Origin: Rhizorhapis suberifaciens
Lineage (GTDB): Bacteria; Pseudomonadota; Alphaproteobacteria; Sphingomonadales; Sphingomonadaceae
DNA: 64,000 nt
Reading direction: 5' to 3'
Assembly: GCF_014200045.1 (NCBI RefSeq)
Contig: NZ_JACHOV010000004.1
Location: forward strand, 62,001 to 126,000
The notes below the pieces were generated by a model. It saw only the letters and a program-made list of their open reading frames with translations, was not told the DNA's origin and searched no databases. Each line of letters begins with the position of its first letter. Positions within the stretch are counted from its first letter, which is position 1. A program made the position numbers and the translations under genes. Positions 6,666-37,930 of this stretch are shown here, piece by piece.

Positions 6666-7685
6666 TCACCTTGAGCCCAGCGGCTTTCCAGGCGCGGGGC
6701 TTTCACCCTTCAGCAAGGCAGAGTGCTTCACGAAGTCAATCAATAGGCCTTGCGGATCATGATCAGTGAGCGCCAGGATCCGCCGACGTAACCGCCAAGC
6801 CAGATGCGACACGATCCAAAGCATGTCGGCAGTCATGGCATAGAAGCGTCCATGGTTTTTCAAGAAATAATATCTCCTCGATTCGAACCAGTAAGCCGGC
6901 ATCCGGCGTACGACCGCATCCTTGCCCGTGAGACCGGTGCTCTGTCCGGCAATGTGCATGACGCAGGCCTGGGGCACGTACCAGCATTCCCACCCGTCCC
7001 GCCGGGCCTGCAGGCACAGGTCCGTCTCTTCATAATATAGAAAATAGCTCTCATCCATCGGTCCGACCGAATCGAGCAGTTCGGCCCTGATCATCATGCT
7101 GGCTCCTGACACCCAATCGACAGGCGCCGGTTCGCGGCCCATTTCCTGAACCGCCGCATGATTTCGCAGCAGACGACTGACCGGCCCGAACCGAGCGCCG
7201 CGTTCAACTTCTCCCAACAATGACGGAAAGCGAAACGCATAAGGCCATGCCTGCCCGTCGCGGTCCTTCAGCAAGGTTCCGGCAATGCCGGCACGCGGAT
7301 GGTCATCCATGAATTTCAGCAGTGCCTGCATGGAACCCGGCTGTACGCGCGTGTCGGGGTTGAGCAGCCAAACATAATCGGGCGAACCGCCTGCCGCCCG
7401 GTCGGTGGCGATGGCACGATTATTACCCTGTGCGAACCCTCCATTGACCGGGGAAGCGACCAGCTTTGCCCAGCGGTCCCAGCCGCGCTTCTTGATGGCG
7501 GAGGCAATACGGCCGCAGCTATTGTCGCCGGAGGCATTGTCGACGATAACTGCGCGCGCGCCGGGATGGGCCTTCATCTCTTCGACAAGACTGTCAAGAC
7601 AGTCGATTGCCAGGCCGGCCGTGCGATAATTCACGATCGCGACCAGAACTGACGGCTGGCTGATCCTGTTCACCGGACCGTTCAT
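6666..7685 (-). CDS. Family 2 glycosyltransferase (WbbL/rhamnosyltransferase-like), last gene of NRPS-PKS operon
   Basis: 339 residues from ATG 7685. A GT-A fold is shown by VAIVNYRTAGLAIDCLDSL, VIVDNASGDNS, NGGFAQGNN, LLNPDTRV (in place of DxD, as in WbbL-type enzymes), WVSGASMMIRAELL and YYEETDLCLQARRDGW. No strong membrane helix is present apart from a C-terminal hydrophobic patch. Its start overlaps the PKS stop by 4 bp (ATGA), so it is translationally coupled to the PKS. That argues it glycosylates the NRPS-PKS product or joins that product to a saccharide, rather than acting only in EPS assembly. The sugar is not predictable. Confidence 0.9.
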   Translation of the reverse strand: MNGPVNRISQPSVLVAIVNYRTAGLAIDCLDSLVEEMKAHPGARAVIVDNASGDNSCGRIASAIKKRGWDRWAKLVASPVNGGFAQGNNRAIATDRAAGGSPDYVWLLNPDTRVQPGSMQALLKFMDDHPRAGIAGTLLKDRDGQAWPYAFRFPSLLGEVERGARFGPVSRLLRNHAAVQEMGREPAPVDWVSGASMMIRAELLDSVGPMDESYFLYYEETDLCLQARRDGWECWYVPQACVMHIAGQSTGLTGKDAVVRRMPAYWFESRRYYFLKNHGRFYAMTADMLWIVSHLAWRLRRRILALTDHDPQGLLIDFVKHSALLKGESPAPGKPLGSR

Positions 7686-10600
7686 TGCGCCAGGAGTTCC
7701 GGCGCGGCAGTCCTCCTCTCGACGGCAGAAAGGACGGGCGGTCTTTTGCACGCCGCCGCTATGGCCGAGCCTCCTTTGAGCGCCGCATCAATGCCCTCCT
7801 GCATCGAGCGGGCAAGTACGGAGACATTGGGTTCCTGAAGCGCGCTGGTATGCCCCCCGGGGATCTGCACGAGCTGCACGGGCTCTGCCACACGCTTGCC
7901 CCATCCCATGATGCAGTCGCTGAACTGCAGGCTGAAGGGCACGTCATCCGGGGCCCCGGTTCCCTCCGTCGCCTTGTAGAGCACGACGTTGCTGTTGGTC
8001 AGCAAACCCTGCGGTCGGTGATGGCGATGCGCGACCTGATAAAGCTCCAGGAATGAGAGGGTTGATCCTCTCGGTTCATGGATCGACCGGCTACGCAGCC
8101 GCTTGACCTCACGATGGTGACGCAGCCGGTCGATGCGGGAACTCAACTCATAAGCGATTACATTATTCAACTTACGGGCAAGAAGCACCGGCACATTCAG
8201 TAGCTCGGCGGCCGTTGCCCCCCTGAAGCTCAGAACGTCCCGCAGTCGGCGGAGCCGCGCCAAGGTGATCTGGAACGGCCGTTCGACCGCTTCAACGTCG
8301 GCTGCATCGATGATCCCGACAAAACGCACATCCTGGTCCTGGTCTTGAAGCTGCCTGGCCATTTCAAATGCGATCACCCCACCCGCGCATAGACCGGCCA
8401 GCAAATAGGGCCCTTCCGGCTGCGCTATTCTGAGGCGGTCGACATAGGTCGCCGCCATTTCATCGATTCGGGTATGGGCAAAGGAACCGTCAGCACGCAT
8501 TTCCGGCTGAAGGCCGTAAACATGATGCCCCTCATCCAACAGCAGCGCCATTGAACGATACAGCAGCGTTTCGCCAAGGCCATCATGGACCAGGAACAGG
8601 GGCGGCTTCCCCTTTCCAGGCCGCAGGGACACGAGACCAGGAATGGGAATAGTCCCGTTTTCCGGCCCTACACCGCCCTCTTCATCCTCGATCGGAGGCG
8701 GCTCGATCAAGGCGGCAAGCTGCGCAACCGTCGGCGCCTCTATCAGCGCGGTGAGAGGCAAGGATTTCCCGCTTTGCTTGCGTAAACGGTTGATGAACTG
8801 GACCGCCAGCAGGGAATGACCACCCAGGTCAAAGAAGTTGTCATTACGCCGCACCTGCCCCACGCCCAGCATTTCCGACCAGAGATGCGCCACCATTTCT
8901 TCAGATGAGGTCCGTGGCGCATCCCTGCCCTCCAGGGCCGCAACCTCGCCATCGCCCGTCCGCCGATCGGAATTTCCAGCGTGCAATTTTTCAAGAGCGG
9001 ACGACAAGACCACCGGAGACACCACGACATGCGGCGCTGCCCGTGCGCTCAATATATGTTCGATGACGGCCATGCCTTCCGATGGTGTGAGGCCCTGGGC
9101 GGCGCTGGCGGCCAGGCCCCCACGGAGCCCGCCCCGGCCTTTTGCTGCTACACCCATTGCAAAGCTGTCCCGGACGAGCATCATGGTGAATGCTTCTATC
9201 TCGGCAAGTACCTGTCCCTCTGCCGTAGCCAGGGTGACATCGAACATAGCTACTGAAGAAGGATCTCCACCTTCCGGCCGATACCGTACATGGCTGACGA
9301 TTCGTTCCGGCAATGGTCCGGCCAGCCGGATACGACCATAGGATGCCGGCGCATAGAATTGCGTCCTGACGTCGCACCCTGGGATCAGCATCTGCGCTCC
9401 GGCCGTCGCGAAGTCCAGCAGCGCAGGATGCAGGTAAAGCTGATCGAGATCTCTTCCAAAAACCTCCGGCAAGCTAAGTTCTATCAGCGCTTCTCCATCG
9501 CCCAGATGAAGCGCCTGTACATTGTTCCACCGCTCCCCGAGGTGCAGGTGCGCGGCGCTGGGGATGGCGGCCTCTCCTCGCCGCTCTTCCGTGCATCGCG
9601 CAAGAATGGCGCTGAGGTTCAGGTGACTGGACGTGCGACGTTCCGCTCCCGAAATATAGCCACGCGCATGTTCCGCCCATTCATCGCCATCTGCGACATC
9701 TCCAGACCGTCCCAATATGGCGAAGCGCCAGACTTCTCCACCTTCATGGCGGAGGTCCACTCGCATCTCCCGCGCCTGGTCATCGGGCACGGCAAAAGGC
9801 GTCAGGAACACTAGTTCACAAAGATCGAGGGCACCCGGCCCGACCATATGATGGAAAGCGGCACGTGCGATTTCGACATAACCCGAACCTGGCACCAGCG
9901 CCTGCCCCGAAGCCAGACGGTGCTCATCCAGCAGCCAGCGCGTCTCGGGCGAATAGGTCGCGCTATAGATACTGCGATCTTTTGTATTGAAAATCAGCCG
10001 GTCGATCAGGGGATGATCAACCAAAGTGCCGGCCGAACCGTCCGCCTCGTCAGGCTGATCGACCGCATCCACCAATGACGCGGCCATGCCCACTTCACGC
10101 CACTGACTCCACCCCATTGAAATTACCGGCGTGGCACCATTTTCCTTTTTTGCCTGGGCAAAGGCGTCAAGAAAGGCGTTGGCGGCTGCATAATCGAACT
10201 GACCGGCAATTCCGGCAAAAGCGCTGATGGAAGAAAACAGCATGATAAAATCGGGCCGCTGTCCCACAAGCGCCGCATCCAATGCCAGCGTTCCTTGCAG
10301 CTTTGGCGCGAGCACCTTGGCCGCATCCCCTATGGTCTTGAGCTGAATGGGGCCATCGTCGAGCACGCCTGCCGTATGGAAAACCCCATGGATCTGGCCG
10401 AACCGGGCCCGCGCTTGGGCGATCGCTCGCCGCATTTGGTGGAAATCACTTACGTCGGCGGACAATAACAGGACCTCGGCGCCCTTTGACTCCAGCGATT
10501 GAACTTCGCGGATGCGGCGACTGATATGATCGCCCGGCGAATGGCTGGCGAGATGGTCTGCCCATAGGTCGCGGGGTGGCAGTGGGGACTTCCCGAGCAG

Positions 10601-13600
10601 TGCCAGTCGCGCGCCAAAACTATCGCTCAGATGCCGCGCAAGCGTCAGTCCGATTCCGCCCAGGCCGCCGGTTATCAGATATGCACCGCCCGGCCGCAAT
10701 CTTGTGGGCGAATGCGATACTGTTGGAGCGGACATGGGCTCCATCTGCTGCACCCAACGTTGCTCATTGCGGTAGGCGACCGCCTGGGCCAGGTCCGGCG
10801 ATGACAACTCGGCCGCCAATGCTTCGACCACATGACACTCCGCCGCCGTGCTGGCGGGCGTCAGGTCAAGGTCGATACTGCAAAGTTCCACATTTGGATA
10901 TTCACGCGGGATCACACGGCACGCGCCTAGTGCTGTCGCTTTGGCAGGCAGGCGTCCAGACTCGGCAAGCACCCGCTGGGTGCGATCGGTGATCAGCGCA
11001 ATCCGGACCGAACGGTCAATCCCCTGCTCCCCCAGCGCCTGGGCCAGCCGCAACAGGCTGTAAAAGCCGCGTTGCAACAAGCTCTCCGTGGCTTTGGGAG
11101 AGGACAAACGCCGATCATGGCCACTTACCAGCCATAGATGATAGATGTGCTGGGGCACAAAGCCGAGGCTCGCTAACAGCGCCCCATAATCCTCCACATG
11201 ATTAGGGTTGATCCGATAAGCGTCGAGCCCCTCCTCCCGAAAACGGGCGCCCCTGCGGGCGGTTGCCACTCTACACCCCTCCGCTCGCAGGCGGCGCACC
11301 AGGGCCTCGCCCAGCGCAAAATCGTCAAGGAACACCAAGGCCGTATCGGGCGGGTCTCCGCGCCCAAGTCTGGCAGTCCGCTGCCAGACCGGCTCGTATA
11401 ACCAATCGTTCAGGTCCTTTCGCCTGGACGGATCATCGCCGCCCGGTCCGGCAAGAGCCAATGCGCTCTTTCCCGGTTCGATCCAATGCCGCTGCCGGTC
11501 GAAACAATAGGTGGGAAGCGGGATGCGCCGCCTGCGCTCGCCCAGCCAGAACTGCCCCCAAGGCACGGCGACGCCGGATGCCCAAAGGCGGCCGAGTATG
11601 TTCAACGCATAGGACAGGTCGTCGACCTTCTCGTCTGGATGCCGGAGCGAATTGAATACAGGCTGATCAGGCGAACGTGCCGGATGCTGCCGCGCAAGGC
11701 TGGTCAGCGTTCGTCCCGGCCCCACTTCCAGCAGCACTTGCCGTTTCTCGTCCAACAAGACCTGCAACCCGTCAGCGAAACGCACCGTCTCGCGCAGGTG
11801 CCGCACCCAATAATTGGCGTCGGTCGCCTCATCGGCGCTGATCCACTTGCCGGTCAGGCAGGAAATGAAAGGCACCTTGGGCGCTTTCATTTTGACGCTT
11901 TGGACCAATTCGCGAAATGGGGCCAGAATGGGTTCCAGCATCTTCGAATGGGCGGCAACGGAGATCGGAACCTCTTGCGTTTCTATCTCACGACCGGCGA
12001 GCGTCGCCTTCAATCGCTCGATTGCCCCTACCGGCCCGGACGCCACGCTGAGCTGTGGGCCATTGACCGCGGCTATCGAAAGGTCGGGGCCCAGCAGCGG
12101 CCGCAACTCATCCTCCGGCAGCGGCACGTTCAACATGCGGCCTTCAGGCAGGGTCTCGAACAGCCTGCCCCGACCGGCGGCGAGCTTCAGCGCTGATTTC
12201 AGGTCGAACACGCCGGCCAAATGCGCTGCTATATATTCGCCCATGCTATGGCCTAGCATCGCCTCTGGTTCGACGCCCCAGGACATCCACAACCGAGCCA
12301 TCGCATATTGCACGGTAAACAGCGCAGGCAATGCGAAGGACGGCTTGTTCAACGCTTCGCGCGCCGCTGCATCGTCCGTTTCAGGGAATAGATGCTCACG
12401 GATGTGGAGGTTGCAACTGCCGGAAAGAATATCCATGCACTCGTCAACCGCCTGCCGGAATATCAATTCCGAACGGTAGAGGCCGAGCGCCATGTTGGGA
12501 TATTGCGCACCCCCGCCAGCGAACAGGAACGCGACGCTCCTATCATTTTCCTTACACTGCTGCGTGAAACTTGCGCCTTCCAACATGGAAACCGCTTCGG
12601 CGGGGTCGCCCGCCACAATGACGCGCCGGTGGCGAAGCGCCTTCCTTCCCACCTGAAGCGTATAGGCGATGTCCGCCAAATTCTGGTCGGGGTGCGCCCG
12701 CAGATGGTCCGCCAGCGCTTGGGCATTTGCCTCCAGCGCCGTCTCCGTAGCTGCTGAGACGACCAGGAGCTGACACGGACGCGATGGCCCGCTCGGACTG
12801 GAAGGCGGCGCTTCCTGAAGCACCACATGGCTGTTGGTGCCCCCGACGCCGAGCGAGCTTATGCCGGCACGACGGGGCGACAAGCCCTGCTTTTCCCAAG
12901 GGCGCAGCGTCGCATTGACATAAAAGGGCGTACGCTCGAACTCGCACGACGGATTGGCCGCGCTGTAGTTCAGACTAGGCGGAATTTTGCCATGACGAAG
13001 CGCCAGCGCCACCTTGATGAAGCTCGCAACGCCCGCCGCTGTATCAGTATGCCCGATATTCGGCTTGACCGACCCGAGGGCGCAATAGCCGGTCGCTTCG
13101 GTGTCCTGTCGAAAGGCCTGGGTCAGCGCGGCCACCTCTATGGGATCGCCGACGGGAGTGCCTGTGCCATGCGCCTCGACATAGCCGATGGTGTCGGCAG
13201 TGACGCCGCTGATGCTCAGCGCTTCGCTTATCACCTTGGCCTGGCCGTCGACGCTGGGAGCGAGATAACTGACCTTGCCCACACCATCATTGTTGACGGC
13301 GGAACCCTTGACCACCGCATAAATATGGTCGCCATCCGCCATGGCGTCCCGCAAGCGCCGCAGCACGACGATTCCCGCCCCGCTGCCAAAGATCGTCCCT
13401 GCCGCCTCTGCATCAAAGGCACGGCAATGGCCGTCCGGCGACAATATCTCCCCCTGTTCGAACACATAGCCGCGCCGGTGCGGCAACTCGATGGTGACGC
13501 CGCCCGCAAGCGCCATGTCGCTTTCGCCGTTCAAAAGGCTCTGTACAGCCATGTGGATCGCGACCAGCGAAGTGGAACAGGCGGTCTGCACATTGACGCT

Positions 13601-14152
13601 CGGCCCTTTCAGATCGAGCAGATAGGAAACACGGGTGGTCAGGAAATCCTTGTCGTTGCCGGTGTGCCGCAACAGGAAGAAGCCGACATTGCGCACCAGC
13701 TCAGGATTGGTGAGCAGGTTGTAAGGCAGATAGGCGTTATGGCCGGACCCAGCGAAGACGCCGATCGCCCCTGCAAAACGTTCCGGCAAATGCCCGGCAT
13801 CTTCCAGCGCCGCCCAGGCACATTGCAGAAAATGGCGATGCTGCGGGTCCATGATCGCCGCGTCGCGCGGGCTAAGGCCGAACAGCGCCGCGTCGAACAT
13901 TTCCATGTCGGGCAGGGGCGCTCCGGCCTTCACATAGTTGGACCGTTTGATGAGACTCTTATCGACGCCCGCCGCAATTAGTTCGTCATCGGAAAAGCGC
14001 GTGATCGACTCTACGCCTTCGCGCAGGTTCGACCAATATTCCTGCATATTGCGCGCGCCGGCAAAACGGCAGGCCATGCCGACAACGGCAATGGCCGTGT
14101 CAAAATCGGCCCCGCCAGAACCGCCGTTGAAGTCAGGGTTGGACTGATACAT
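7682..14152 (-). CDS. Type I polyketide synthase, single module KS-AT-KR-DH-ACP-TE
   Basis: 2156 residues. KS about 18-445 has Cys192 (TACSTS), His328 (EAHGTGT) and His368 (NIGHTD). AT about 540-840 has GHSMGEY with Ser636; the usual substrate motif position reads VAAHS, neither HAFH nor YASH. KR about 1150-1350 has TGGLGGIG, Ser1307/1308, Tyr1321 and Asn1325, with its structural half at about 915-1120. DH about 1378-1660 has His1411 (one residue longer spacing to the G than usual) and Asp1580 in HPALLD. The carrier protein has Ser1780 (DLGGHSLL). The C-terminal thioesterase has GLCAGG with Cys1922 where Ser is common. KR before DH is not the standard order. There is no ER or methyltransferase. 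The gene starts 5 bp after the NRPS stop, so the assembly line is NRPS to PKS to release. Confidence 0.95.
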   Translation of the reverse strand: MYQSNPDFNGGSGGADFDTAIAVVGMACRFAGARNMQEYWSNLREGVESITRFSDDELIAAGVDKSLIKRSNYVKAGAPLPDMEMFDAALFGLSPRDAAIMDPQHRHFLQCAWAALEDAGHLPERFAGAIGVFAGSGHNAYLPYNLLTNPELVRNVGFFLLRHTGNDKDFLTTRVSYLLDLKGPSVNVQTACSTSLVAIHMAVQSLLNGESDMALAGGVTIELPHRRGYVFEQGEILSPDGHCRAFDAEAAGTIFGSGAGIVVLRRLRDAMADGDHIYAVVKGSAVNNDGVGKVSYLAPSVDGQAKVISEALSISGVTADTIGYVEAHGTGTPVGDPIEVAALTQAFRQDTEATGYCALGSVKPNIGHTDTAAGVASFIKVALALRHGKIPPSLNYSAANPSCEFERTPFYVNATLRPWEKQGLSPRRAGISSLGVGGTNSHVVLQEAPPSSPSGPSRPCQLLVVSAATETALEANAQALADHLRAHPDQNLADIAYTLQVGRKALRHRRVIVAGDPAEAVSMLEGASFTQQCKENDRSVAFLFAGGGAQYPNMALGLYRSELIFRQAVDECMDILSGSCNLHIREHLFPETDDAAAREALNKPSFALPALFTVQYAMARLWMSWGVEPEAMLGHSMGEYIAAHLAGVFDLKSALKLAAGRGRLFETLPEGRMLNVPLPEDELRPLLGPDLSIAAVNGPQLSVASGPVGAIERLKATLAGREIETQEVPISVAAHSKMLEPILAPFRELVQSVKMKAPKVPFISCLTGKWISADEATDANYWVRHLRETVRFADGLQVLLDEKRQVLLEVGPGRTLTSLARQHPARSPDQPVFNSLRHPDEKVDDLSYALNILGRLWASGVAVPWGQFWLGERRRRIPLPTYCFDRQRHWIEPGKSALALAGPGGDDPSRRKDLNDWLYEPVWQRTARLGRGDPPDTALVFLDDFALGEALVRRLRAEGCRVATARRGARFREEGLDAYRINPNHVEDYGALLASLGFVPQHIYHLWLVSGHDRRLSSPKATESLLQRGFYSLLRLAQALGEQGIDRSVRIALITDRTQRVLAESGRLPAKATALGACRVIPREYPNVELCSIDLDLTPASTAAECHVVEALAAELSSPDLAQAVAYRNEQRWVQQMEPMSAPTVSHSPTRLRPGGAYLITGGLGGIGLTLARHLSDSFGARLALLGKSPLPPRDLWADHLASHSPGDHISRRIREVQSLESKGAEVLLLSADVSDFHQMRRAIAQARARFGQIHGVFHTAGVLDDGPIQLKTIGDAAKVLAPKLQGTLALDAALVGQRPDFIMLFSSISAFAGIAGQFDYAAANAFLDAFAQAKKENGATPVISMGWSQWREVGMAASLVDAVDQPDEADGSAGTLVDHPLIDRLIFNTKDRSIYSATYSPETRWLLDEHRLASGQALVPGSGYVEIARAAFHHMVGPGALDLCELVFLTPFAVPDDQAREMRVDLRHEGGEVWRFAILGRSGDVADGDEWAEHARGYISGAERRTSSHLNLSAILARCTEERRGEAAIPSAAHLHLGERWNNVQALHLGDGEALIELSLPEVFGRDLDQLYLHPALLDFATAGAQMLIPGCDVRTQFYAPASYGRIRLAGPLPERIVSHVRYRPEGGDPSSVAMFDVTLATAEGQVLAEIEAFTMMLVRDSFAMGVAAKGRGGLRGGLAASAAQGLTPSEGMAVIEHILSARAAPHVVVSPVVLSSALEKLHAGNSDRRTGDGEVAALEGRDAPRTSSEEMVAHLWSEMLGVGQVRRNDNFFDLGGHSLLAVQFINRLRKQSGKSLPLTALIEAPTVAQLAALIEPPPIEDEEGGVGPENGTIPIPGLVSLRPGKGKPPLFLVHDGLGETLLYRSMALLLDEGHHVYGLQPEMRADGSFAHTRIDEMAATYVDRLRIAQPEGPYLLAGLCAGGVIAFEMARQLQDQDQDVRFVGIIDAADVEAVERPFQITLARLRRLRDVLSFRGATAAELLNVPVLLARKLNNVIAYELSSRIDRLRHHREVKRLRSRSIHEPRGSTLSFLELYQVAHRHHRPQGLLTNSNVVLYKATEGTGAPDDVPFSLQFSDCIMGWGKRVAEPVQLVQIPGGHTSALQEPNVSVLARSMQEGIDAALKGGSAIAAACKRPPVLSAVERRTAAPELLAQ

Positions 14153-14157
14153 GGCAG

Positions 14158-17100
14158 TTAACTCCCCTCGCCCAGGACGGCTGGAACCCGTCCCGCGATC
14201 CGGCGCTGCAATGCTGCCCTGCGCCCCTCGGCCCGGCTGAGGCCTTCCTCTGCGGCCTTTGCCGAACTATCGCCTCCCGCGAGATGAGCGCTTAGCGATT
14301 GGACGGTGGGAAACCGGAAAATATCGGTGATCGGCAGCTCCCGCCGCAGCTCGGTCCGCAAACGGCGATGCATCTGCACTGCGAGCAATGAATGACCGCC
14401 AAGGTCAAAGAAATTGTCGCGCGTGCCGACCTGCGATAGCTTCAGCACATCGCACCAGATTGCGGCAATCCTTTGCTCCATGCCCCCCGCAGGCGCGACA
14501 TAGCTTTCCGCGACGGACGTCATGCTGACCGACTCCAGCGCCGGCAACGCGTTCCGATCGACCTTGCCGTTCGGCGTCATCGGCAACCGCGCGAGCGACA
14601 TGATATGCGCCGCCACCATGAATTCGGGCAGTCGGGCCTTCAGGCACTCGCGTACCTCCGCAATCATGTCCCTTGAAAGCTCCGGCACGACATAAGCAAT
14701 CAACTGCTTGTCCCCGACCTCATCCTCGCGAGCCACGACTACAGCTTCCTGCACCGCTTCATGGTCGTTCAGCACAGCTTCGATCTCACCAAGCTCGATG
14801 CGATAGCCCCGCACCTTCACCTGATGGTCGAGACGTCCCAGGAATTCGATGACGCCATCGGCTCGCCGCCTACCAAGGTCGCCGGTACGATAGGCGCGTT
14901 CGCCCGGACGCAGGGGATCGGCGATGAAGCGTTCGGCGGTAAGGCTCGGTCGATCCAGATAGCCCCGCACGACGCCATGACCGCCAATGACGAGCTCGCC
15001 GGGCGCGCCGGGCAAGACCGGCTGCTGCCGGCTGTCGAGAATATAGACATGTTGGTTGGCGAGCGGTCTTCCGAGCGGTATCGCGCCATCCGATCCATCG
15101 ACTTTATGAGCCGCCGACCAGATGGTGGTCTCCGTTGGACCGTACATGTTGGTAACGGCGCCTCCGGACAGGCCTGTCAGCTCTCGCGCCAAATCCGGCG
15201 GGAAGGCCTCGCCACCGATCATTACATGCTTCAGAGCCGCGATCGGCTCCCTGAGGCGGTCGTCCGCGAGCATCAAACGCATCATTGATGGCGTGCATTG
15301 CAGATGCGTGACGGCATGACGCTTCATGAGCACAGGCAAAGGTTCATCCGCGCCGGCCGGCTCACCCGACGAAGCCATCAGCCGCAGCTGATTCAGATAA
15401 GGAAGATGCTCCAGCACTTGCCGTTCCGGCACGCCGAAGTCGATCAGGCACGCGATCTCATCCACGCCGACCGTGCGGGCCATATCGACCATCGCCAAGC
15501 AGCTTTCGGGCGTCCCGAACAGGCCGCTGGTTTCATAATAACGGTCGAAAGCGAAGGAGAGCAGCATTTCCATGTCAGTTTGCGACAGGGCCTCGAATGC
15601 GTCCTGCCCGGCGGATTCCGCCATTCCCGCCCGCCGCTTGAATGCCGGAAAGGCCCAGGCATATTGCTTTACAAGGCTCGTCGCGGTCCGCAGATAGGCG
15701 ATCATCGGTTCCCGGACCGCCTCCCGCACCTGCTCCGCGTCGGGCCCCACGAAGCTGTGCAACATCAAGGTGACATGTCCCTCGCCTTCGTGCCCCGCTT
15801 CCCTCCAGGCGTTGCGGTAGGCGTCCAGCTTTTCCGAAAGCTCACCGAGCGACTGCCCGAGCAAATGAGTCAATACGCCGCCGCCCGCTCTGCCCGCAGC
15901 AGCAAAGGTGTCCACATTTCCGGCCGAGGTGATCCAGAAAGGTAGTTCAGGCTGCACGGGCCGGGGCAGTATCTGCACTTCCACCGGCTTGCCCAGCGGA
16001 CCTGCAAATGACCGGCTTTCACCCCGCCACAAGGCCCGGACGGCATCCATGCCGTTAAGGAGAGCGCCAGTGCGATCGGCAAAGCTTTCCGGGCGCAGCA
16101 CAAAATCATTGGGCTGCCATCCCGATGCGAAGGCGATACCGGCGCGGCCGTTCGACAGATTGTCGACCACCGACCATTCTTCCGCAACCCGCACAGGATG
16201 GTGCAGCGGCACCACGACGCTGCCTCCCCTGATCTTGACGCGACTGGTGATCGCCGCCACTGCCGCACCGGTCACGGCCGGATTGGGATACAGCCCGCCA
16301 AAAGAATGAAAGTGCCGCTCGGGGGTCCATACCGCGGAAAACCCGTTCTGATCGGCGAACTTCGCGCCTTCGAGCAGCAGGCGGTATTTCTCGCCCGGCT
16401 GGCTCTCCGCATCGGCCGCGAAATAGAACAGGCTGAAGTCCAGTGGCTTTTTAACCGGGACGCGCGCTTCGGTCAGTTCGCCGCCCGTTGAGAGTATGAC
16501 ATGCAGGCCGCGGGACAGCGTCCAGCAAAGTTCCAACACAGAGATGTCAAAACTTAGGCTGGTGACGGCGAGCCATGTCCCTTCAGGCGTGATATGCTGG
16601 TCCATTCCCGCAAAGAAGTTCGCCACATTCCGGTGCTCGACCATGACGCCTTTGGGCTTGCCGGTCGAACCAGAGGTGTAGATCACATAGGCAAGGCTTG
16701 CAGGACCCGCGGCGCTCTCAACCGGCTCAGGCGAATGACGCATGATTTCGGGCCAATCGGCATCGATCCGAACCAGGGTCGCGCCCTCGCCGGAAATCCT
16801 TTCGGCCAGATGCGCTTGCGTGATGATCAGCTTTGCACGGGAATCGGCGATCATGTGCGCAATTCGTTCGGAAGGGTATTTGGGATCGAGCGGAACATAG
16901 GCTCCGCCCGCCTTCAATATGCCGAGGAGCGCGACCAGCATGTCCAATGAGCGGTCGACGAACAGTCCCACGAATTGATCGGGTCCCGCGCCTTGCTGCT
17001 GCAGATGGCGCGCAATCTGATTGGAGCGCCGATTCAGCTCGCCATAGCTCAAGCTCTCGCCCCGGCAGGTCACGGCGACGCGGTCCGGCGTGCGGCGCGC

Positions 17101-18816
17101 CTGCTCTTCGAACAGTTCGTGGACGCAAGCATCGGCACGCCAGGCGGCGTCAGGTCCACTCCAGGCGCGGATTGCCTTCGCCAGTTCCACAGGGCTTATA
17201 AGGGGTAGTTCACCCGTGGGCGCTTGCGGCTCCGCGTCTGCCGCCGCCAACAACGAAAGCAGTCCCTGCTGCATGGTTGTCACCGCAGCATGATCGAGCC
17301 GTGCCGGATCATGGAACCAGCGGCTGACCCGCCCGTCGGACCGGATCGCGATGGTCAACTCCGATCCGGGCAGCAGCGTCACTTCGTCCAATGTCTCGGC
17401 GATAAGGATGGAGACGGGCAGCAGCACGCGGTCCTTTTCCGCGCGCAACTCCGGCATGCGCGCCACAAGGTCGCTGCTGAACCCCAGCCGGCGATGTGCC
17501 TCCCGCACCGATCCGCACAACCCCTCCCGCAGGTGATCCAGCCCCTGTGAAAAGTCGATCTCCGCGCGAAGCGGCACTTGCGGCGAAAACCAGGCTTCCA
17601 GCCCGGCATGGGAAGCGGTCATCACTGGATCGGTATAGCCGAAATCAAACTCTTCTTTGTCGGCAAGCCGTCCGATCAAGGCCACAGCAGCGGCCAGAAC
17701 GGCTTTTTCCCTTCCCAGAACATCCGGGCCAGGCATGACGAGTTCCGCGTGCGTCATGATGTCCCGACCCGGATGTCGGTCCCGTACGACTAGGGGGAGG
17801 TCGACGGGACCAAGGGATGCGATGCGGCTGCGCCAATAATTTTCATGCGCCGCCAAGCCTGAATTTATTTCAGTGAGGGCCGAAAGCGTCGACCGGTCTA
17901 GCACGTCGAACTGCGCCCCTTCGCGAAGTCCGAACCGACCCACGGCTTCGCTCACCGCCAGTTCAGCGCCCTGCAATGTGGAAAGACGATGCAGCGCCAA
18001 ATGCTCGGCGCCGGTCGCGACGATGATCCGGTGTGGCTCGATGGCCACTATCGTGCCCGGCGCAAATCTGGATGTGTCGCCCTCGACACTTGCGCCCAGC
18101 ACAAGCATCAGCGCCCCGCCAAAGCTCGCCTTCGCCTTTCCAATGGGATTGGCGTAGCCGCCGAAATCAAGCGCGCGTATCAGTCTTTCGATCTTGTCGG
18201 CAGGTTGGTGCCACTGAATTGCGCAGGCCGCCTCAGGCCGATGCCGCCTTGAAAAATAACGAGCCGGTCCATTGGGCTGCGCTTGTGGTACGATCCGGCC
18301 GCTGGCGAGACCATCGACGAGTTCCTCGAAACTGTCGATCCCCGCAGCAAAGCATTTCGTATTGAGCGAAAAGGCTGTTTCGCCTTCATCAATGGCGATG
18401 CCCCGCGCGGTCAGCACCGCCCCGCCATCGACCTCTCCTGTCATTTGGTGCCAGGTGATGCCGTGCAGGGGCTCTCCGTTCAGCAGCGCCCACACCGGCA
18501 CGTTCAAACCTGCATAATGTGGTAACGGTCCGTCATGGAAATTGATCGCGCCCTTGGCGGGCAGGCTCAGCACCTCATCGGAAAGCACCGAAAGGTTCGT
18601 CACGCTGAACAGATAATCGAACCGTCCGACTTCGGCTGAGGGCAGGTCACGCGGCCGATCGACCAGCAGGATGCCAGCCTCGCTCGCCCAGTTGCGTATG
18701 GCGGGCCGCCGCGACACCACTGCCGCGATCCTGTGGCCCCGCGCTTCCAACGTCTTGGCGCACTGAATGAGAAGAGACTCTTCGCCGATGAGAACACAGC
18801 GCCAGGAACAATGCAT
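14158..18816 (-). CDS. NRPS: formyltransferase - truncated C - A with inserted luciferase-like monooxygenase - PCP
   Basis: 1552 residues from ATG 18816 (GGGAG 6 nt upstream; ATG 18819 also possible). Residues 1-185 are a formyltransferase with the catalytic set Asn92, His94 (INFHDGPLP) and Asp130 (GEVDGG), as in the start module of linear gramicidin synthetase. Residues about 310-540 resemble the C-terminal half of a condensation domain without HHxxxDG. The A domain runs about 560-1430 (YTSGSTGKPKG, NMYGPTET, RTGDLG, NGKVDR). Between A4 (SFDISVLEL) and A5 lies a luciferase-like FMN monooxygenase at about 790-1130 (GFSAVWTPERHFHSFGG, AGIAFASGWQPNDF). The PCP Ser is 1476 (DLGGHSLLA). Aligned by eye to GrsA, the specificity pocket reads D-I-L-Q-M-G-M-I-W-K, a glycine-type code. 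Confidence 0.93.
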   Translation of the reverse strand: MHCSWRCVLIGEESLLIQCAKTLEARGHRIAAVVSRRPAIRNWASEAGILLVDRPRDLPSAEVGRFDYLFSVTNLSVLSDEVLSLPAKGAINFHDGPLPHYAGLNVPVWALLNGEPLHGITWHQMTGEVDGGAVLTARGIAIDEGETAFSLNTKCFAAGIDSFEELVDGLASGRIVPQAQPNGPARYFSRRHRPEAACAIQWHQPADKIERLIRALDFGGYANPIGKAKASFGGALMLVLGASVEGDTSRFAPGTIVAIEPHRIIVATGAEHLALHRLSTLQGAELAVSEAVGRFGLREGAQFDVLDRSTLSALTEINSGLAAHENYWRSRIASLGPVDLPLVVRDRHPGRDIMTHAELVMPGPDVLGREKAVLAAAVALIGRLADKEEFDFGYTDPVMTASHAGLEAWFSPQVPLRAEIDFSQGLDHLREGLCGSVREAHRRLGFSSDLVARMPELRAEKDRVLLPVSILIAETLDEVTLLPGSELTIAIRSDGRVSRWFHDPARLDHAAVTTMQQGLLSLLAAADAEPQAPTGELPLISPVELAKAIRAWSGPDAAWRADACVHELFEEQARRTPDRVAVTCRGESLSYGELNRRSNQIARHLQQQGAGPDQFVGLFVDRSLDMLVALLGILKAGGAYVPLDPKYPSERIAHMIADSRAKLIITQAHLAERISGEGATLVRIDADWPEIMRHSPEPVESAAGPASLAYVIYTSGSTGKPKGVMVEHRNVANFFAGMDQHITPEGTWLAVTSLSFDISVLELCWTLSRGLHVILSTGGELTEARVPVKKPLDFSLFYFAADAESQPGEKYRLLLEGAKFADQNGFSAVWTPERHFHSFGGLYPNPAVTGAAVAAITSRVKIRGGSVVVPLHHPVRVAEEWSVVDNLSNGRAGIAFASGWQPNDFVLRPESFADRTGALLNGMDAVRALWRGESRSFAGPLGKPVEVQILPRPVQPELPFWITSAGNVDTFAAAGRAGGGVLTHLLGQSLGELSEKLDAYRNAWREAGHEGEGHVTLMLHSFVGPDAEQVREAVREPMIAYLRTATSLVKQYAWAFPAFKRRAGMAESAGQDAFEALSQTDMEMLLSFAFDRYYETSGLFGTPESCLAMVDMARTVGVDEIACLIDFGVPERQVLEHLPYLNQLRLMASSGEPAGADEPLPVLMKRHAVTHLQCTPSMMRLMLADDRLREPIAALKHVMIGGEAFPPDLARELTGLSGGAVTNMYGPTETTIWSAAHKVDGSDGAIPLGRPLANQHVYILDSRQQPVLPGAPGELVIGGHGVVRGYLDRPSLTAERFIADPLRPGERAYRTGDLGRRRADGVIEFLGRLDHQVKVRGYRIELGEIEAVLNDHEAVQEAVVVAREDEVGDKQLIAYVVPELSRDMIAEVRECLKARLPEFMVAAHIMSLARLPMTPNGKVDRNALPALESVSMTSVAESYVAPAGGMEQRIAAIWCDVLKLSQVGTRDNFFDLGGHSLLAVQMHRRLRTELRRELPITDIFRFPTVQSLSAHLAGGDSSAKAAEEGLSRAEGRRAALQRRIAGRVPAVLGEGS

Positions 18817-19013: not shown

Positions 19014-19928
19014 CTATTTATACTCAATCAACTTCCCCTTTTTCTTCAAATGGAGCCGGTTAAGCCAAAATTGCATTTGTCCCTGGACATGCGGTATCTT
19101 CCCCAAAAGAATGAAGCTGGCATAAAGCGCCCCCGCATGCCGCGTGACACGCAGCCAGAGCAGCGGCCAAAGCGGAAGGCTCATTGGATTGGCCCAGAAA
19201 AGGTTGCTCATAACCTTGCGCCATAGCCGTCGATCTTCAGCGCCCCGGCGGTGCAAAGCTTCGGCGCTGGCATAGCCGCTGCGCCGGTTGCGTTGCCACC
19301 ATTGGGCAAAGCGGGACATTGCGGCATCGTGCAGCGTCATTTCTCGCGCCAGGCGGTAGATGTTCCAGCCTGCCTTGCGCAGTCTATGGCAGAGATCGGG
19401 CTCTTCCCCCGCGATCAGCTCGTCCGCAAAGCCGCCCGCTTCCTCCAGCGCAACGACGCGCATCAGGCTATCGCCGCCGCAGCTCTCGGCCTCCCCAACC
19501 GTAGTGTCCCATTCAAGATCGCAGAGTCGATTGTAGACGCTGTCGCCAGGAGAGCGCTCGCGCCGCCGTCCGCAGACGACGGCGGCGTCAGTATTCCTCT
19601 GCATCACCGCTTTTGCAGCGTCCAGCCAGTCGGGATGCAATTCGCAGTCCCCGTCAATGAACTGGACCAACTCCATTTCCGGCAATGCATCGCATAGATA
19701 CCGAAACCCGGCGTTGCGCGCGCGCGCCGCCGTAAAGGGCGTTGCGGCATCCAATTCCACGACGTCGACTCCCAAGGACCGCGCCATTGCCACGCTGCCG
19801 TCGATGGAACCAGAATCCACATAGATTGATCGGACGAACTGCCCGGACAAGCTGGCAAGGCAGCGCCGGAGGCGTTCGCCTTCATTCCGCCCGATAATGA
19901 CGGCTCCAATAGGGCAATTCTGGCTCAT
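19014..19928 (-). CDS. Family 2 glycosyltransferase, membrane-associated
   Basis: 304 residues with GT-A motifs: AVIIGRNEGERLRRCLASL, YVDSGSIDGS, FIDGDCELHPDW (DGD metal site) and AGEEPDLCHRLRKAGW. A hydrophobic C-terminal stretch (LPLWPLLWLRV, LYASFILLG) probably anchors it to the inner membrane. Its start overlaps the stop of the next gene upstream by 4 bp, forming an operon of three glycosyltransferases (21085, 19925, 19014). It likely adds a sugar to a lipid-linked EPS intermediate; specificity unknown. Confidence 0.88.
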   Translation of the reverse strand: MSQNCPIGAVIIGRNEGERLRRCLASLSGQFVRSIYVDSGSIDGSVAMARSLGVDVVELDAATPFTAARARNAGFRYLCDALPEMELVQFIDGDCELHPDWLDAAKAVMQRNTDAAVVCGRRRERSPGDSVYNRLCDLEWDTTVGEAESCGGDSLMRVVALEEAGGFADELIAGEEPDLCHRLRKAGWNIYRLAREMTLHDAAMSRFAQWWQRNRRSGYASAEALHRRGAEDRRLWRKVMSNLFWANPMSLPLWPLLWLRVTRHAGALYASFILLGKIPHVQGQMQFWLNRLHLKKKGKLIEYK

Positions 19929-21082
19929 GGCTCACGGCTCGTGCGCAGCCAGGCTCGCTGAGGCCGAACCAGCAGCCTGGCATAGATCGGTAGCTTCCAG
20001 ACCATATAGAATGGCAGCTTCATCAACGTCCCAAGTGGCAGCGAAGCCCTGCCCCACCGGGCCCAGACGCACAGCAGGCTGACGAAGAACAGCAGGCATC
20101 CCGCTACCAATCCTAGCAATGGCGTGGCGTCCCCGGACTGCCATGCAAAAAGGAGCAGTCCCAGCAACCCACTGATCACCGCCATGCCCAACAGGCTTAG
20201 CGGCGGTACGGCGACGTCCAATGCCAATGCCAGGGCTGAGGGCCGTTGCAAGACGGTCCGTGCCAGGCGGGGGACATAGGCGGCCGCCGTCATGATCTGC
20301 CCATGTTCCCAGCGGGTCCGCTGCGTCACCGTAGCGGACTGACTGCTTGCGCTGCTGGTGAAGGCCGCATCCTCATGGAAAATTACGCGTTCTCCGCCGA
20401 GGAACAATTCCAGTCCAAGCTGCAAGTCTTCCACCAGATTGGCTGAGGCGAGCGGCGCGGACTTGAACAGGGCCCAGGGGAATGCCATCCCCGTCCCTTG
20501 CAGCAAGGCTGCTCCAGACAAACCGAACAACCCCCGCTGCCTCACATGATTGCGGATACGAAAGGCGAAGGTCGAAATTCCGACCAACGCCCCTGCCTCT
20601 TCAGCATGCGTCAGCAGAAACAAGCCCTGCACCGCCGCCTCTTCCTGATAAGCACAAGCCGCCAACTTTTGCAGCGCGCCCGGCTCTGGAACACAGTCGG
20701 CATCGAGGATGATCACAATTTCGGGAGGATCATCCGAAAGGATGTCGCGGCCAAAATCGAGCGCAAATCCTTTCCCTCGGAACGCCGGATTGGTGCGGGT
20801 TGCCACAAAGGCGCCTGCACGACGTGCCACCGCTGCAGTGTCATCCGTGCAATTATCGGCCACAACGACCAGACGGTCGAAAGGGCGCAACTGCACCCGC
20901 ACCGCTGCTATTACTGCGGCAATGCCCAGAACCTCATTATGTGCCGGCATCAGCACAGCGAATGGCGGGGCCGACGCGGAAGCAACTCGGCTTTGTCCAG
21001 CGAGAATCGCCACTGTAAATTCGAACGACAGCCAAAGCAGCGGAACTAGCAACAACATCGCAAGCAACCAGGCCGCCGCCAT
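19925..21082 (-). CDS. Integral membrane family 2 glycosyltransferase
   Basis: 385 residues. An N-terminal membrane helix (MAAAWLLAMLLLVPLLWLSF) is followed by a processive-type GT2 domain: LMPAHNEVLGIAAVI, VADNCTDDTA, ILDADCVPEPGA (DAD), LVEDLQLGLE (ED) and QRTRWEHGQ (QxxRW-like). Two or more C-terminal helices (LLGMAVISGLLGLLLFAW, LVAGCLLFFVSLLCV) follow. Architecture resembles cellulose/hyaluronan synthase-like transferases, although here it is one of several EPS transferases. The ATG at 21082 has a GGGGGA ribosome site and lies 2 bp after the preceding gene. Confidence 0.88.
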   Translation of the reverse strand: MAAAWLLAMLLLVPLLWLSFEFTVAILAGQSRVASASAPPFAVLMPAHNEVLGIAAVIAAVRVQLRPFDRLVVVADNCTDDTAAVARRAGAFVATRTNPAFRGKGFALDFGRDILSDDPPEIVIILDADCVPEPGALQKLAACAYQEEAAVQGLFLLTHAEEAGALVGISTFAFRIRNHVRQRGLFGLSGAALLQGTGMAFPWALFKSAPLASANLVEDLQLGLELFLGGERVIFHEDAAFTSSASSQSATVTQRTRWEHGQIMTAAAYVPRLARTVLQRPSALALALDVAVPPLSLLGMAVISGLLGLLLFAWQSGDATPLLGLVAGCLLFFVSLLCVWARWGRASLPLGTLMKLPFYMVWKLPIYARLLVRPQRAWLRTSREP

Positions 21083-21084
21083 GA

Positions 21085-22359
21085 CTATCCCCCTACCAGT
21101 GGACGGAGCAAATCGGCCAGCAACGCCGCATTCCTGTCGCCATTATGGTTTCTAAGCACACGCTCCCGACCGATTTCCGCCATGCACGCCAACCGGCCCG
21201 GATGGCATTCCAGCGCCTCGCGCAGGGCTTCGGCCAACGCCGGACGCGATCCGGCCGGGACAAGCCAGCCGCATTGTTCATCAACCAGCTCCGGAACACC
21301 GGCGATGCAGGTCGCGACCACGGGGCGGCCTAGCGCCAGGGCCTCCATCAGCACGACCGGAAGGCCCTCGGCAAAGCTCGGCAGGATCAATGCCCGCGCT
21401 CCCAATATCTCGCGGCGAACAGCCTCCGCGTCTTTCCAGCCAGTCAGCGTCACCCGCCGTTCCAGGCCAAGCGCCTTGATCTGCGCCTCAAGCTGGGGCC
21501 GCATTTCGCCATCTCCAACGATGCGCAGCGAGAACAGATGATCCCGCGCGACTTCAGCTGCCGCTTCGATCAGCAGGTTCAATCCCTTTTGGCTGCTGAG
21601 CCGGGCCACGCAGACCAGGACATTGGAATGCGGGAGCGATGACGCCGAGGGCTCTTCATCCAGAAGCTGGCGGTCGAGCCCACAGCGAACGACCTTGATC
21701 TTCGGCCAATCGGCGATATGTGCCCATCGCATCAATTGGCCGCGACCGAAGTCGGAAACGGCCACGACAAAACTCGCGCCGGCGATCTTTTCCGCAAGCA
21801 GCAGCGATGCCGGTGCGTCGAACTCATCGGGGCCATGCAGCGTCATGCTGTAGGTAATGCCGGCAAGCTTGTTCGCCAGCCTGGCGACGGCGGCCGGGTT
21901 AGTGCCGAAATGGACATGGACGTGCCGGATACTTGCGTTCTGCAGCATCCGAACGAGCAGGCAGGCCTCCACAAGATAAGCCGCCGAACGGACAATTCCG
22001 GCCTGTCCACGCAAGCCAGAGCCGACCGCCAGCGCCAGCGTTTTCGCAAAGCGGACAGGGTGTCTCAACGACTGCCAAAGGAGAGCGGAAAAAAGCCGCA
22101 TGCGAGGGCCGTCGAGCAGCACTGCGGTTCGCGTCGCTTCCGACTGGTCGTCGGGATCGGGCAGCGTTTCGCCTGACGTGCGGATCGAAAAGCGGTGCAC
22201 ATCGAAGCCCTGCCGCTCAAGCGCAGCAATCTCGCGGCGGATGAAGCTGTGGCTGACCTTTGGATAGACATTGGTCAAATAAGCGATCCGAAGGGGCGCC
22301 ACTCTGCCGTACCAGCCGTCGCGCGCGCTCAGCCGTCGCTCATCCAGAACGATTTGCAT
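21085..22359 (-). CDS. Family 4 glycosyltransferase (colanic-acid WcaL/AmsK-like)
   Basis: 424 residues from ATG 22359 (GGGAGAG upstream; upstream in-frame starts add a poorly structured leader). The GT-B fold shows RIAYLTNVYPKVSHSFIRREI at the N-terminus, HVHVHFGTNPAAVARL, TLHGPDEFD, VARLSSQKGLNLLIEA and EGLPVVLMEALALGRPVVAT (the EX7E nucleotide-sugar motif), then VPELVDEQCGWLV. The N-terminal SHSFIRREI pattern is characteristic of WcaL/AmsK-type EPS enzymes. First gene of the leftward three-gene glycosyltransferase operon, divergent from the gene at 22634. Confidence 0.9.
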   Translation of the reverse strand: MQIVLDERRLSARDGWYGRVAPLRIAYLTNVYPKVSHSFIRREIAALERQGFDVHRFSIRTSGETLPDPDDQSEATRTAVLLDGPRMRLFSALLWQSLRHPVRFAKTLALAVGSGLRGQAGIVRSAAYLVEACLLVRMLQNASIRHVHVHFGTNPAAVARLANKLAGITYSMTLHGPDEFDAPASLLLAEKIAGASFVVAVSDFGRGQLMRWAHIADWPKIKVVRCGLDRQLLDEEPSASSLPHSNVLVCVARLSSQKGLNLLIEAAAEVARDHLFSLRIVGDGEMRPQLEAQIKALGLERRVTLTGWKDAEAVRREILGARALILPSFAEGLPVVLMEALALGRPVVATCIAGVPELVDEQCGWLVPAGSRPALAEALREALECHPGRLACMAEIGRERVLRNHNGDRNAALLADLLRPLVGG

Positions 22360-22633
22360 CACGCCTCTCCCACCGCCGGATAGGCTCATTCTGCAGGGGA
22401 AACCGGTGTCGTGAGAAGACTTGATATAATCCACTGAAGTCTACTCAGTATCTATTCGCGCCCGGAAAATACCCACGGACTAGGGATCATGGTCGCCAAG
22501 GGCGATCGGCGGTAGCTTAGGCGCCTGAACTGCGCATTTATTGCGGGCGATTGTCCGTAACTTCATGTTCTGGAGGCACTACGCCTTGATATCGTTTCGC
22601 CCCGGCATCCATTCACTTCGTAAGGCTGTAGGC

Positions 22634-23650: not shown

Positions 23651-24241
23651 ATGTTGATGCAGCATATTCGCCAGGATTACAGGCGGCACGGCAATTCTGT
23701 CATGAATGCGGCCTTCCTGTCGCTTCTCATCTACCGCTTCGGACGCTGGTCGCTCGAACGGGAGAATCCGATGGGCCGCCGCATCGCCCGAAAGCTCTAC
23801 GGCGCGGTAAACCTGTTTGTCGCGAACGTCACGAAGATATGGATCCCCCCGCAAGTGACTATTGGGGAAGATTTTCACATCATCCATGCCGAAGGATCGC
23901 TGTCCATCCATCCCAATGTGATCATCGGCGACCGGTTCGGGGTCATGCACAATGTCACCATCGGCACTAATATGACCGATGGCGCGCCAGTCATTGGGGA
24001 CGACGTCTTTGTCGGCGTCAACGCGACCCTGCTCGGCCCAATCACAATTGGTGACCGAGTCCGGATTGCGGCGAATACGGCGGTCACCACCGATGTTCCC
24101 AATGACTGCGTCGCTATCGGCTCGCCAGCGAAAATCTACCCCCGCCTTGGCCCTTGGCCGGATGCTACCGCGCTGGCCTCCATGGCCTTCCACAGGAAGG
24201 CAGCAGGCCCGCAGCGGCGATCAGTGGAACAGCTGCCATGA
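23651..24241 (+). CDS. Serine acetyltransferase-like hexapeptide-repeat O-acetyltransferase
   Basis: 196 residues. After a helical N-terminus (RQDYRRHGNSVMNAAFLSLL), a left-handed beta-helix is built of hexapeptide repeats (VTIGEDFHIIHAEG, IHPNVIIGDRF, IGDDVFVGVNATLLGPITIG, IPN-type end with AIGSPAKI). This is the CysE/WcaB fold, but in an EPS locus it more likely acetylates a sugar than serine. ATG 23651 is chosen because GAGGGGGG lies 9 nt upstream. Its stop overlaps the acyl-CoA ligase start (ATGA). Confidence 0.85.
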   Translation: MLMQHIRQDYRRHGNSVMNAAFLSLLIYRFGRWSLERENPMGRRIARKLYGAVNLFVANVTKIWIPPQVTIGEDFHIIHAEGSLSIHPNVIIGDRFGVMHNVTIGTNMTDGAPVIGDDVFVGVNATLLGPITIGDRVRIAANTAVTTDVPNDCVAIGSPAKIYPRLGPWPDATALASMAFHRKAAGPQRRSVEQLP

Positions 24242-27252: not shown

Positions 27253-27259
27253 CCCTGCC

Positions 27260-29820: not shown

Positions 29821-30034
29821 GAACGAGCCTCCCATTTGCCCCGGAACTGCGGGGACCAGATCTCATGAAATCAAGATTATCAAAGCGGAAGGCAGCCCCG
29901 ATATTGGTTGAATCCCGCTGGTAAAGCAGCCCTGCGGCATTCCGGATCACCGTTTTAGGAAGGCGCATTGGCGTGTGGCCCCCGGCGTCCAAGCGGGCGT
30001 TTCTTTCGCAAATTTGCTCGGGAGAATGCGGGTG

Positions 30035-37854: not shown

Positions 37855-37930
37855 CTTGGAGCCGCTTGCGCTAAAACGGAATCTCACCGTTCGATCCGAG
37901 CGTGGCCGAGGGACGCCGGCTTAGTGTAGC

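Follow-up and report, generated by a model that had tools for sequence, protein, structure and literature searches.

Organization of the three-gene operon

The locus described here lies in a stretch of 64,000 nucleotides of Rhizorhapis suberifaciens (contig NZ_JACHOV010000004.1, positions 62,001 to 126,000), hereafter the window, which carries on its minus strand, between positions 6666 and 18816, three coupled genes encoding a nonribosomal peptide synthetase (NRPS), a type I polyketide synthase (PKS) and a family 2 glycosyltransferase (GT2). The NRPS open reading frame (ORF; 14158-18891) counts 1577 amino acids (aa) from a TTG codon and contains two adjacent ATG codons, at 18819 and 18816, behind the sequence GGGAG. 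The second is plausible as the likely start, giving a protein of about 1552 aa, since GGGAG precedes it and homologues align from query residues 18-34. Only 5 nt separate the NRPS stop codon from the PKS ATG (14152), and the PKS TGA shares an ATGA overlap with the likely ATG of the GT2 gene (7685), whose ORF spans 6666-7751. None of the three ORFs contains an internal stop and, as all are intact and conserved, a pseudogene or frameshift was rejected. The coupling, the domain order and the GT2 overlapping the PKS stop, as proposed in the initial annotation, were thus borne out by intact ORFs and by Pfam and NCBIfam profile matches. A GTG ORF following the GT2 gene (6139-6669) was considered as a further member and dropped, its conservation being weak and no Pfam or NCBIfam match being obtained for it. 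The NRPS-PKS architecture is not a product of chance, because the same pair, with the PKS beside the NRPS, recurs in all 11 relatives compared, at 46-64% identity per aligned segment.

Domain content of the NRPS and the PKS

The NRPS begins with a formyltransferase domain (FT), followed by a condensation-related stretch (C'), an adenylation domain (A) with an inserted monooxygenase (MOX) and a peptidyl carrier protein (PCP). FT-C', modelled from an alignment of 57 sequences, reached a predicted local distance difference test (pLDDT) score of 94.8, and its first 300 residues match the ArnA and Fmt formyltransferases (for ArnA, Z 26.8, root-mean-square deviation (rmsd) 2.3, 290 aligned). With phmmer, the FT scored 84.7 bits to ArnA versus about 25 to LgrA. 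The Asn-His-Asp columns, which we take to be the catalytic triad, are invariant in 57/57 aligned sequences, so that the FT looks active on sequence grounds, in agreement with the formyltransferase starter proposed initially. For the C' stretch, the Pfam search gave no match to the condensation family, and all 50 Foldseek matches listed for the whole FT-C' model were formyltransferase-type folds; therefore, C' was folded alone. The resulting model (48 sequences, pLDDT 94.9) matches NRPS condensation domains, by their C-lobe in the best rows (EntF residues 167-446, Z 19.5, rmsd 4.8, 233 aligned), with Txo1 ranking first in Foldseek (E 4.5e-11). It is known that the condensation-domain N-lobe carries the HHxxxDG motif, which is absent from the NRPS sequence. 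In the models, C' lacks the N-lobe and the FT appears to occupy its place; C' thus looks like a scaffold rather than a catalytic domain, and module 1 would have no functional condensation domain.

The AMP-binding domain is split by the MOX between A4 (FDIS, residue 781) and A5 (NMYGPTETT, residue 1248). The MOX matches TIGR04020 with 494 bits against a cut-off of 244, being the sole match over the cut-off in the genome; the monooxygenase FbnE of fabrubactin belongs to this MupA/Atu3671 family. The code DILQMGMIWK, read with motifs anchored to what we take to be the PheA positions, is presumed to specify glycine, a prediction that agrees with the substrate first proposed. The pattern DILQ[M/L/F]GM[I/V]WK was found in 50 of 91 MOX-containing proteins, two being unread; among the 39 other codes read, 24 deviate at position 278 only, a position that the script places by a loose motif. 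Membership in the SolG family was rejected, since the NCBIfam SolG match (492 bits against a cut-off of 2200) falls on the generic A-PCP part; SolG itself is listed with the domain order C-A-P in a section of PMC9765074.

The PKS combines ketosynthase (KS), cis-acting acyltransferase (AT) and acyl carrier protein (ACP) domains carrying the active-site motifs of a modular type I PKS with ketoreductase (KR), dehydratase (DH) and thioesterase (TE) domains. The AT presumably selects malonyl, the KR is presumably of the B-type, and no enoylreductase (ER) domain was found in the PKS by Pfam. As for the TE, the nucleophile position among 68 TEs is occupied by Cys (GLCAGG) in 23 and by Ser in 43, the motif not being found in two; the Cys-type enzymes are those of 12 sphingomonad loci and of loci L068, L071-L077, L079, L082 and L083.

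Covariation of the monooxygenase and dehydratase domains

After four recognised duplicates were dropped, 106 loci were available, among which other close relatives may remain, and 77 of them were counted, namely those with a complete FT-NRPS and a neighbouring PKS with KS, AT, KR and carrier. The DH was present in 74/74 complete pairs with the MOX (TE in 71) and in 0/3 of those without it. The 29 loci outside the count comprised 12 with the MOX and no PKS in the examined stretch, eight with the MOX and a truncated PKS, two lacking both the MOX and a PKS, and seven in which no complete FT-NRPS was present. The Sphingomonas loci G043 and G123, devoid of MOX and DH, nest within the MOX-containing clade (node values of 0.927 with L068, then 0.0, 0.883, 0.971 and 0.992 outward); in both, the two domains are excised cleanly at the domain borders and the glycine code is kept, which indicates that these Sphingomonas have lost MOX and DH together. 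The remaining locus, L093:83-11552, from a metagenome-assembled genome (MAG) of Candidatus Sulfotelmatobacter, encodes a MOX-less FT-NRPS whose code is Ser-like and, after it, two PKSs that lack a DH. With the root on L086, it branches outside the MOX-containing clade and hence represents an outgroup state and not a demonstrated loss. A search of 385 class genomes for more MOX-less orthologues yielded one further MOX-less FT-NRPS, L190:33-4820. It has an FT-C'-A arrangement whose A domain carries about 325 inserted aa in its later part and, since a complete PKS is lacking, it does not bear on the DH count. The joint loss in Sphingomonas represents a natural experiment on the role of the inserted monooxygenase, for which at least three chemistries are in play.

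From the domain content, the NRPS would load glycine, the FT would formylate its nitrogen, and the MOX would oxidise the N-formylglycyl-PCP, most likely by C-alpha hydroxylation and less likely by N-oxidation towards an oxime. The C-lobe C' would serve as a scaffold between FT and A, with no peptide bond being made, and the PKS would add one malonyl unit, reduce it and dehydrate it in step with the MOX oxidation, giving a 2-enoyl unit of four carbons that is oxidised at C4. Candidate chains are 4-formamido-4-hydroxybut-2-enoyl, which can form a butenolide by ring closure; 4-oxobut-2-enoyl, should the N-C bond be broken as it is in myxothiazol; and 4-oximinobut-2-enoyl. For the product deduced initially, glycine as predicted substrate and the presence of an FT were supported, and the MOX oxidation coupled to the DH had been left out; the caution voiced then about what is made proved well founded.

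The data do not decide between these chemistries, and C-alpha hydroxylation is favoured because the FT would turn the nitrogen into an amide. It is also the reaction described for the glycine-embedded monooxygenases of myxothiazol and melithiazol in a passage of PMC11342130, where the N-C bond breaks and glyoxylate stays on the carrier, and for the solanimycin glycine A-MOX in a passage of PMC10204066. Rather unlikely, and compatible with a role in exopolysaccharide (EPS) synthesis, is that the MOX acts on nitrogen to give a 4-oximino-but-2-enoyl chain, with the FT working on N-hydroxyglycyl or on the oxime. This would explain the MOX-DH coupling, and part of PMC7318616 proposes that the oxime on the glycine primer of necroxime is built by oxygenase, DH and MT domains; however, neither a formyltransferase nor the word "formyl" appears in the main text of that paper, and the amide that N-formylation creates speaks rather for C-alpha hydroxylation, as with myxothiazol and solanimycin. 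The starters of necroxime, lobatamide and oximidine likewise involve a glycine primer, an oxygenase and a DH, although in trans-AT modules of a long assembly line. The resulting chain is a C4 enoyl oxime, the oxime side chain of necroxime and lobatamide being of the 4-oximino-but-2-enoyl type. Equally compatible with an EPS role, and quite improbable, is a MupA-like action of the MOX on the beta-ketoacyl-ACP of the PKS, where alpha-hydroxylation followed by KR and DH would give an alpha-keto acyl product. Such an activity would also couple MOX with DH, and MupA of mupirocin, a member of the same TIGR04020 family, acts in trans and requires a beta-keto ACP substrate according to a portion of PMC10952193; on the other hand, the MOX considered here is embedded in the glycine A domain of the upstream protein, and its glycine-embedded homologues are said in PMC11342130, in the passage already mentioned, to act on the glycyl C-alpha.

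The exopolysaccharide locus around the operon

In the window, the NRPS, PKS and GT2 genes close a Wzx/Wzy-type EPS locus, in which flippase, polymerase, Wza, Wzz and glycosyltransferases are found together (Table 1). They continue a minus-strand run ordered GT4 (21085), GT2 (19925), GT2 (19014), a gap of 197 bp, NRPS, PKS and GT2, with the EPS genes at 24-43 kb and riboflavin genes and COQ9 flanking the other side of the operon. Assignment to an exosortase-A EPS locus was rejected, as the ligase (550.8 versus 592 bits), export (87 versus 180) and chain-length (176 versus 279) matches remain under their cut-offs; the location of the two exosortase genes of the genome on other contigs also speaks against it. 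The remark in the initial annotation that no dedicated exporter is present was misleading, given that a flippase and export genes occur in the same locus. Its companion remark on the phosphopantetheinyl transferase (PPTase) held, none being seen among the scanned window ORFs; other contigs carry two PPTase (ACPS)-family genes and three more Wza homologues.

Table 1. Features of the operon and of the neighbouring EPS locus in the window
Feature	Position	Strand	Basis
NRPS gene, FT-C'-A(MOX)-PCP	14158..18816	-	ORF + Pfam/NCBIfam
Formyltransferase domain, full-length ArnA/Fmt fold	17917..18813	-	Pfam PF00551+PF02911
C', condensation-domain C-lobe only	17158..17919	-	structure model
Adenylation N-terminal part, motifs A3 + A4	16474..17112	-	Pfam + motifs
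MOX, MupA/Atu3671-family FMN luciferase-like monooxygenase between A4 and A5	15382..16437	-	TIGR04020
Adenylation C-terminal part, Gly code DILQMGMIWK	14563..15342	-	Pfam + code reading
PCP	14281..14475	-	Pfam
Type I PKS gene, KS-AT-KR-DH-ACP-TE, 2156 aa	7682..14152	-	ORF + Pfam/NCBIfam
KS, motifs ACSTS, HGTGT, NIGH	12815..14095	-	Pfam + motifs
AT, motifs GHSMG, VAAHS	11687..12529	-	Pfam + motifs
KR, catalytic Tyr + LDD	10094..10687	-	Pfam + motifs
DH, motifs HRLASGQALVPG; LLDFATAGAQ	9179..10015	-	Pfam + motifs
ACP	8705..8890	-	Pfam
TE, Cys at nucleophile position (GLCAGG)	7829..8602	-	Pfam + motif
GT2 gene, partner co-distributed with NRPS-PKS	6666..7685	-	ATGA overlap + genome co-distribution
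GT2 upstream of NRPS; homologue in 11/11 relatives	19014..19928	-	
GT2, EpsU-like (under cut-off); homologue in 11/11 relatives	19925..21082	-	
GT4, EpsE-like (under cut-off)	21085..22434	-	
526-aa ORF in EPS locus, no Pfam/NCBIfam match	22613-24193	-	
Acyl-CoA ligase close to exosortase-A-associated ligase family (550.8 bits, cut-off 592)	24154..25821	+	
GT4	26128..27300	-	
WecE-like dTDP-4-amino-4,6-dideoxyhexose transaminase (over cut-off)	27260..28648	-	
GT4	28426..29835	-	
2OG-Fe(II) oxygenase	30035..30856	-	
GT4	31008..32222	+	
Wzx-type flippase	32215..33594	+	
Wzy / O-antigen-ligase-type polymerase	33575..35308	-	
Acyl_transf_3 membrane acyltransferase (ORF start maybe too early)	35149..37887	-	
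WecG/TagA/CpsF glycosyltransferase	38012..38905	-	
Wza-type export protein	39246..39875	+	
Wzz-type chain-length determinant	41061..42524	+	
EPS tyrosine autokinase homologue	42539..43327	+	

At E 1e-100, 8 of the 298 family genomes contain the NRPS, and at E 1e-150 it was detected in 6 of 396 order genomes; the window's own genome and G043 belong to both sets. Eleven relatives were compared, ten over 60 kb and G547 over 20 kb. All 11 have homologues of the three GT2s. The six EPS-assembly families are all present in G057, G107, G013, G405, G123, G043, G112 and G140 and four of them in G517 (without Wzz and kinase) and G553 (without Wzx and Wzy), so that at least four occur in 10/10 of the 60-kb regions; G547 shows two in its 20 kb. 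By comparison, none of the six was found in 20/20 control stretches of 20 kb, taken from 4 of the 11 relatives at hand-chosen round coordinates. Two controls match the acyl-ligase query, which was not counted as EPS because it also matches the NRPS itself.

The GT2 encoded within the operon shows a closer association with the megasynthases. When the 298 family genomes were searched with it, 28 matched at 1e-40, the top eight matches being the eight NRPS-positive genomes (its own gene, then 52-60%, 362-430 bits), and the best among the 290 NRPS-negative genomes reached 44% and 269 bits. A level of 300 bits was exceeded in 8/8 NRPS-positive versus 0/290 NRPS-negative genomes; this GT2 is co-distributed with the NRPS. 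The GT2 at 19014 is less strict, with matches in 41 of 298 genomes, and reaches 61% in the NRPS-negative G225, where its homologue adjoins a 41% homologue of the operon GT2 near a contig end (G225:C5:2392-4325). In Ruegeria, the gene between PKS and NRPS encodes a GT2 homologous to that of the operon (40% over 278 aa, 216 bits); of the other two EPS GT2s, one aligns with it at 28% over 78 aa and the second gives no match at 1e-3. Across 98 loci, a member of the operon GT2 group lies at most 1200 bp from the megasynthases in 47 and not in 51.

Distribution beyond the sphingomonads

A tblastn search with the NRPS yielded 16 records covering at least 80% of the query, from Methylobacterium, Shinella, Ruegeria, Rhizobium, Aminobacter, Paracoccus and others, with 42.7-46.4% identity in the 15 plasmid matches listed. 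Ten plasmid regions were inspected, seven with annotation and three without, and 6/7 annotated loci, from Rhodobacterales and Hyphomicrobiales, have a type I PKS and EPS genes around the NRPS; a PPTase gene lies within the examined stretch at four of those six, at one of these four about 9 kb away. A genome scan with the FT-C' alignment revealed at least 571 relatives in Alpha-, Beta-, Gamma- and Deltaproteobacteria, Planctomycetes, Acidobacteria, Chloroflexi, Gemmatimonadetes, Myxococcota, Cyanobacteria, Actinobacteria and others, some classes being assigned from genus names. Most of the 80 examined have the same NRPS-PKS architecture, as judged with domain hidden Markov models seeded from this family's own proteins. 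The NRPS and PKS trees have 44/76 splits in common (r 0.84, 79 pairs); the length filter dropped the two MOX-less Sphingomonas from this set, and a separate NRPS tree of 102 sequences includes them.

The initial annotation had suggested that wide synteny with no known product would support a new family. Such synteny was encountered in 11/11 relatives, and the architecture recurs in many phyla; literature searches, in which subscription papers were thinly covered, turned up no publication that names the architecture or a product for it. An EPS context as a universal trait was rejected outside Alphaproteobacteria, where the neighbours are mixed. The EPS link is therefore a claim about Alphaproteobacteria, being weak elsewhere.

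Some individual loci depart from the common arrangement. In Paracoccus marcusii, the EPS locus also contains another, separate NRPS of the C-A-PCP-TE type (L059:653-4531), and in Aliiroseovarius a MOX-NRPS stands beside a fused NRPS/PKS gene (L064:24483-33731) on a plasmid with the exosortase gene xrtD. Single-chain FT-C'-A(MOX)-PCP-TE proteins, with no PKS in the examined stretch, were observed in Bacillota and Actinomycetota MAGs (L095:6072-12578 and L123:946-6633). In Phaeobacter inhibens, a PKS and an NRPS gene (Inhi_1972 and Inhi_1974), listed in a section of PMC4062626, are separated by two locus tags, a spacing like that of the PKS-GT2-NRPS order in Rhodobacterales relatives.

Proposed role in exopolysaccharide synthesis

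With about an even chance of being right, the operon is an EPS-locus module that builds a C4 unit from MOX-oxidised N-formylglycine for the EPS. The TE would release the unit or transfer it to an EPS repeat unit or lipid-linked sugar, the GT2 would act on the same unit, and Wzx, Wzy and Wza would assemble and export the decorated EPS. What the sequences show is the architecture, the active-site conservation, the glycine code, the predicted fold of C', the MOX-DH covariation, the EPS context and the co-distribution of the GT2; we infer every chemical step, the product and its attachment to sugar.

An unlikely alternative is that the line makes a small molecule which the GT2 glycosylates and which diffuses out of the cell, such as an antibiotic, a signal or a siderophore-like compound, with the EPS genes as mere neighbours. 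In its favour, NRPS-PKS-TE lines normally give free products, and in Myxococcus, Planctomycetes and Anaerolineae the pair is found at loci where EPS matches are few or absent. The EPS genes around the pair in all 11 sphingomonad relatives and in six of the seven annotated alphaproteobacterial plasmid loci, Aliiroseovarius being the exception, with none in the 20 controls, argue against it, as does the co-distribution of the GT2 with the NRPS. The same location and co-distribution run counter to the free-standing, released and glycosylated small molecule that had first been proposed. It is quite improbable that the PKS instead provides the polysaccharide with a specialised lipid or acyl primer rather than a repeat-unit decoration, like RkpA, a rhizobial capsule type I PKS encoded in a polysaccharide locus and not known to have an NRPS, FT or MOX partner. 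In addition to this precedent, the locus contains an acyl-CoA ligase and a membrane acyltransferase. Nevertheless, glycine extended only once would fall short of a lipid anchor unless the PKS works iteratively, and no ER was found among the domains.

Several observations weigh against the decoration of EPS by an oxidised-glycine C4 unit. The MOX-DH covariation comes down to a single joint loss and one outgroup locus, the latter having a Ser-like code. No transferase moving an acyl group from carrier to sugar was identified, and the TE may simply hydrolyse its substrate. For the WecE transaminase, which could provide an amino-sugar acceptor, the matches are confined to two relatives and are weak (28-33%). 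Furthermore, the Aliiroseovarius plasmid locus is surrounded mostly by denitrification genes; with 42 neighbour queries, no match was obtained at 26/76 scan loci, indicating that the unit can exist outside an EPS setting; and among 107 ORFs of 19 non-alphaproteobacterial loci, the commonest groups, GT2 and polysaccharide deacetylase, have six members each. Finally, the GT2 match in G043 reads through one TGA, and the PKS of G057 consists of two overlapping ORFs, with the KS apart from the AT-to-TE part, either of which could reflect sequencing error or decay.

Relation to known systems and significance

A monooxygenase is likewise inserted in a glycine adenylation domain in myxothiazol, melithiazol and SolF of solanimycin; in those cases the module extends an upstream chain, whereas here it is a starter, with the FT before it and the PKS after it, and the FT would supply the N-acyl group that A-MOX modules elsewhere obtain from the upstream chain. 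SolF is listed as A-P-C-A-ox-P, with no FT, in a section of PMC9765074, which also reports some Dickeya SolF lacking about 500 aa predicted to contain the monooxygenase. LgrA of linear gramicidin likewise has an N-terminal formyltransferase before A-PCP, but the FT described here is ArnA/Fmt-like, with its own C-terminal domain, and is followed by the C-lobe remnant. Lastly, the locus shares Wza, Wzz, kinase, Wzx, Wzy, WecG and glycosyltransferases with other Wzx/Wzy EPS loci, to which two megasynthases and a co-distributed GT2 are added here.

More tentatively, and with somewhat less than an even chance, these loci would define a widespread, unnamed class of two-protein lines (FT-C'-A[MOX]-PCP plus KS-AT-KR-DH-ACP-TE) that place an oxidised-glycine C4 acyl or butenolide-type unit covalently in EPS, merging megasynthase and Wzx/Wzy logic with a dedicated GT2 as hand-over enzyme. 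If this is true, some "orphan NRPS-PKS" clusters would turn out to be EPS genes, and the EPS of many environmental bacteria would bear a reactive, assembly-line-made group overlooked by carbohydrate annotation.

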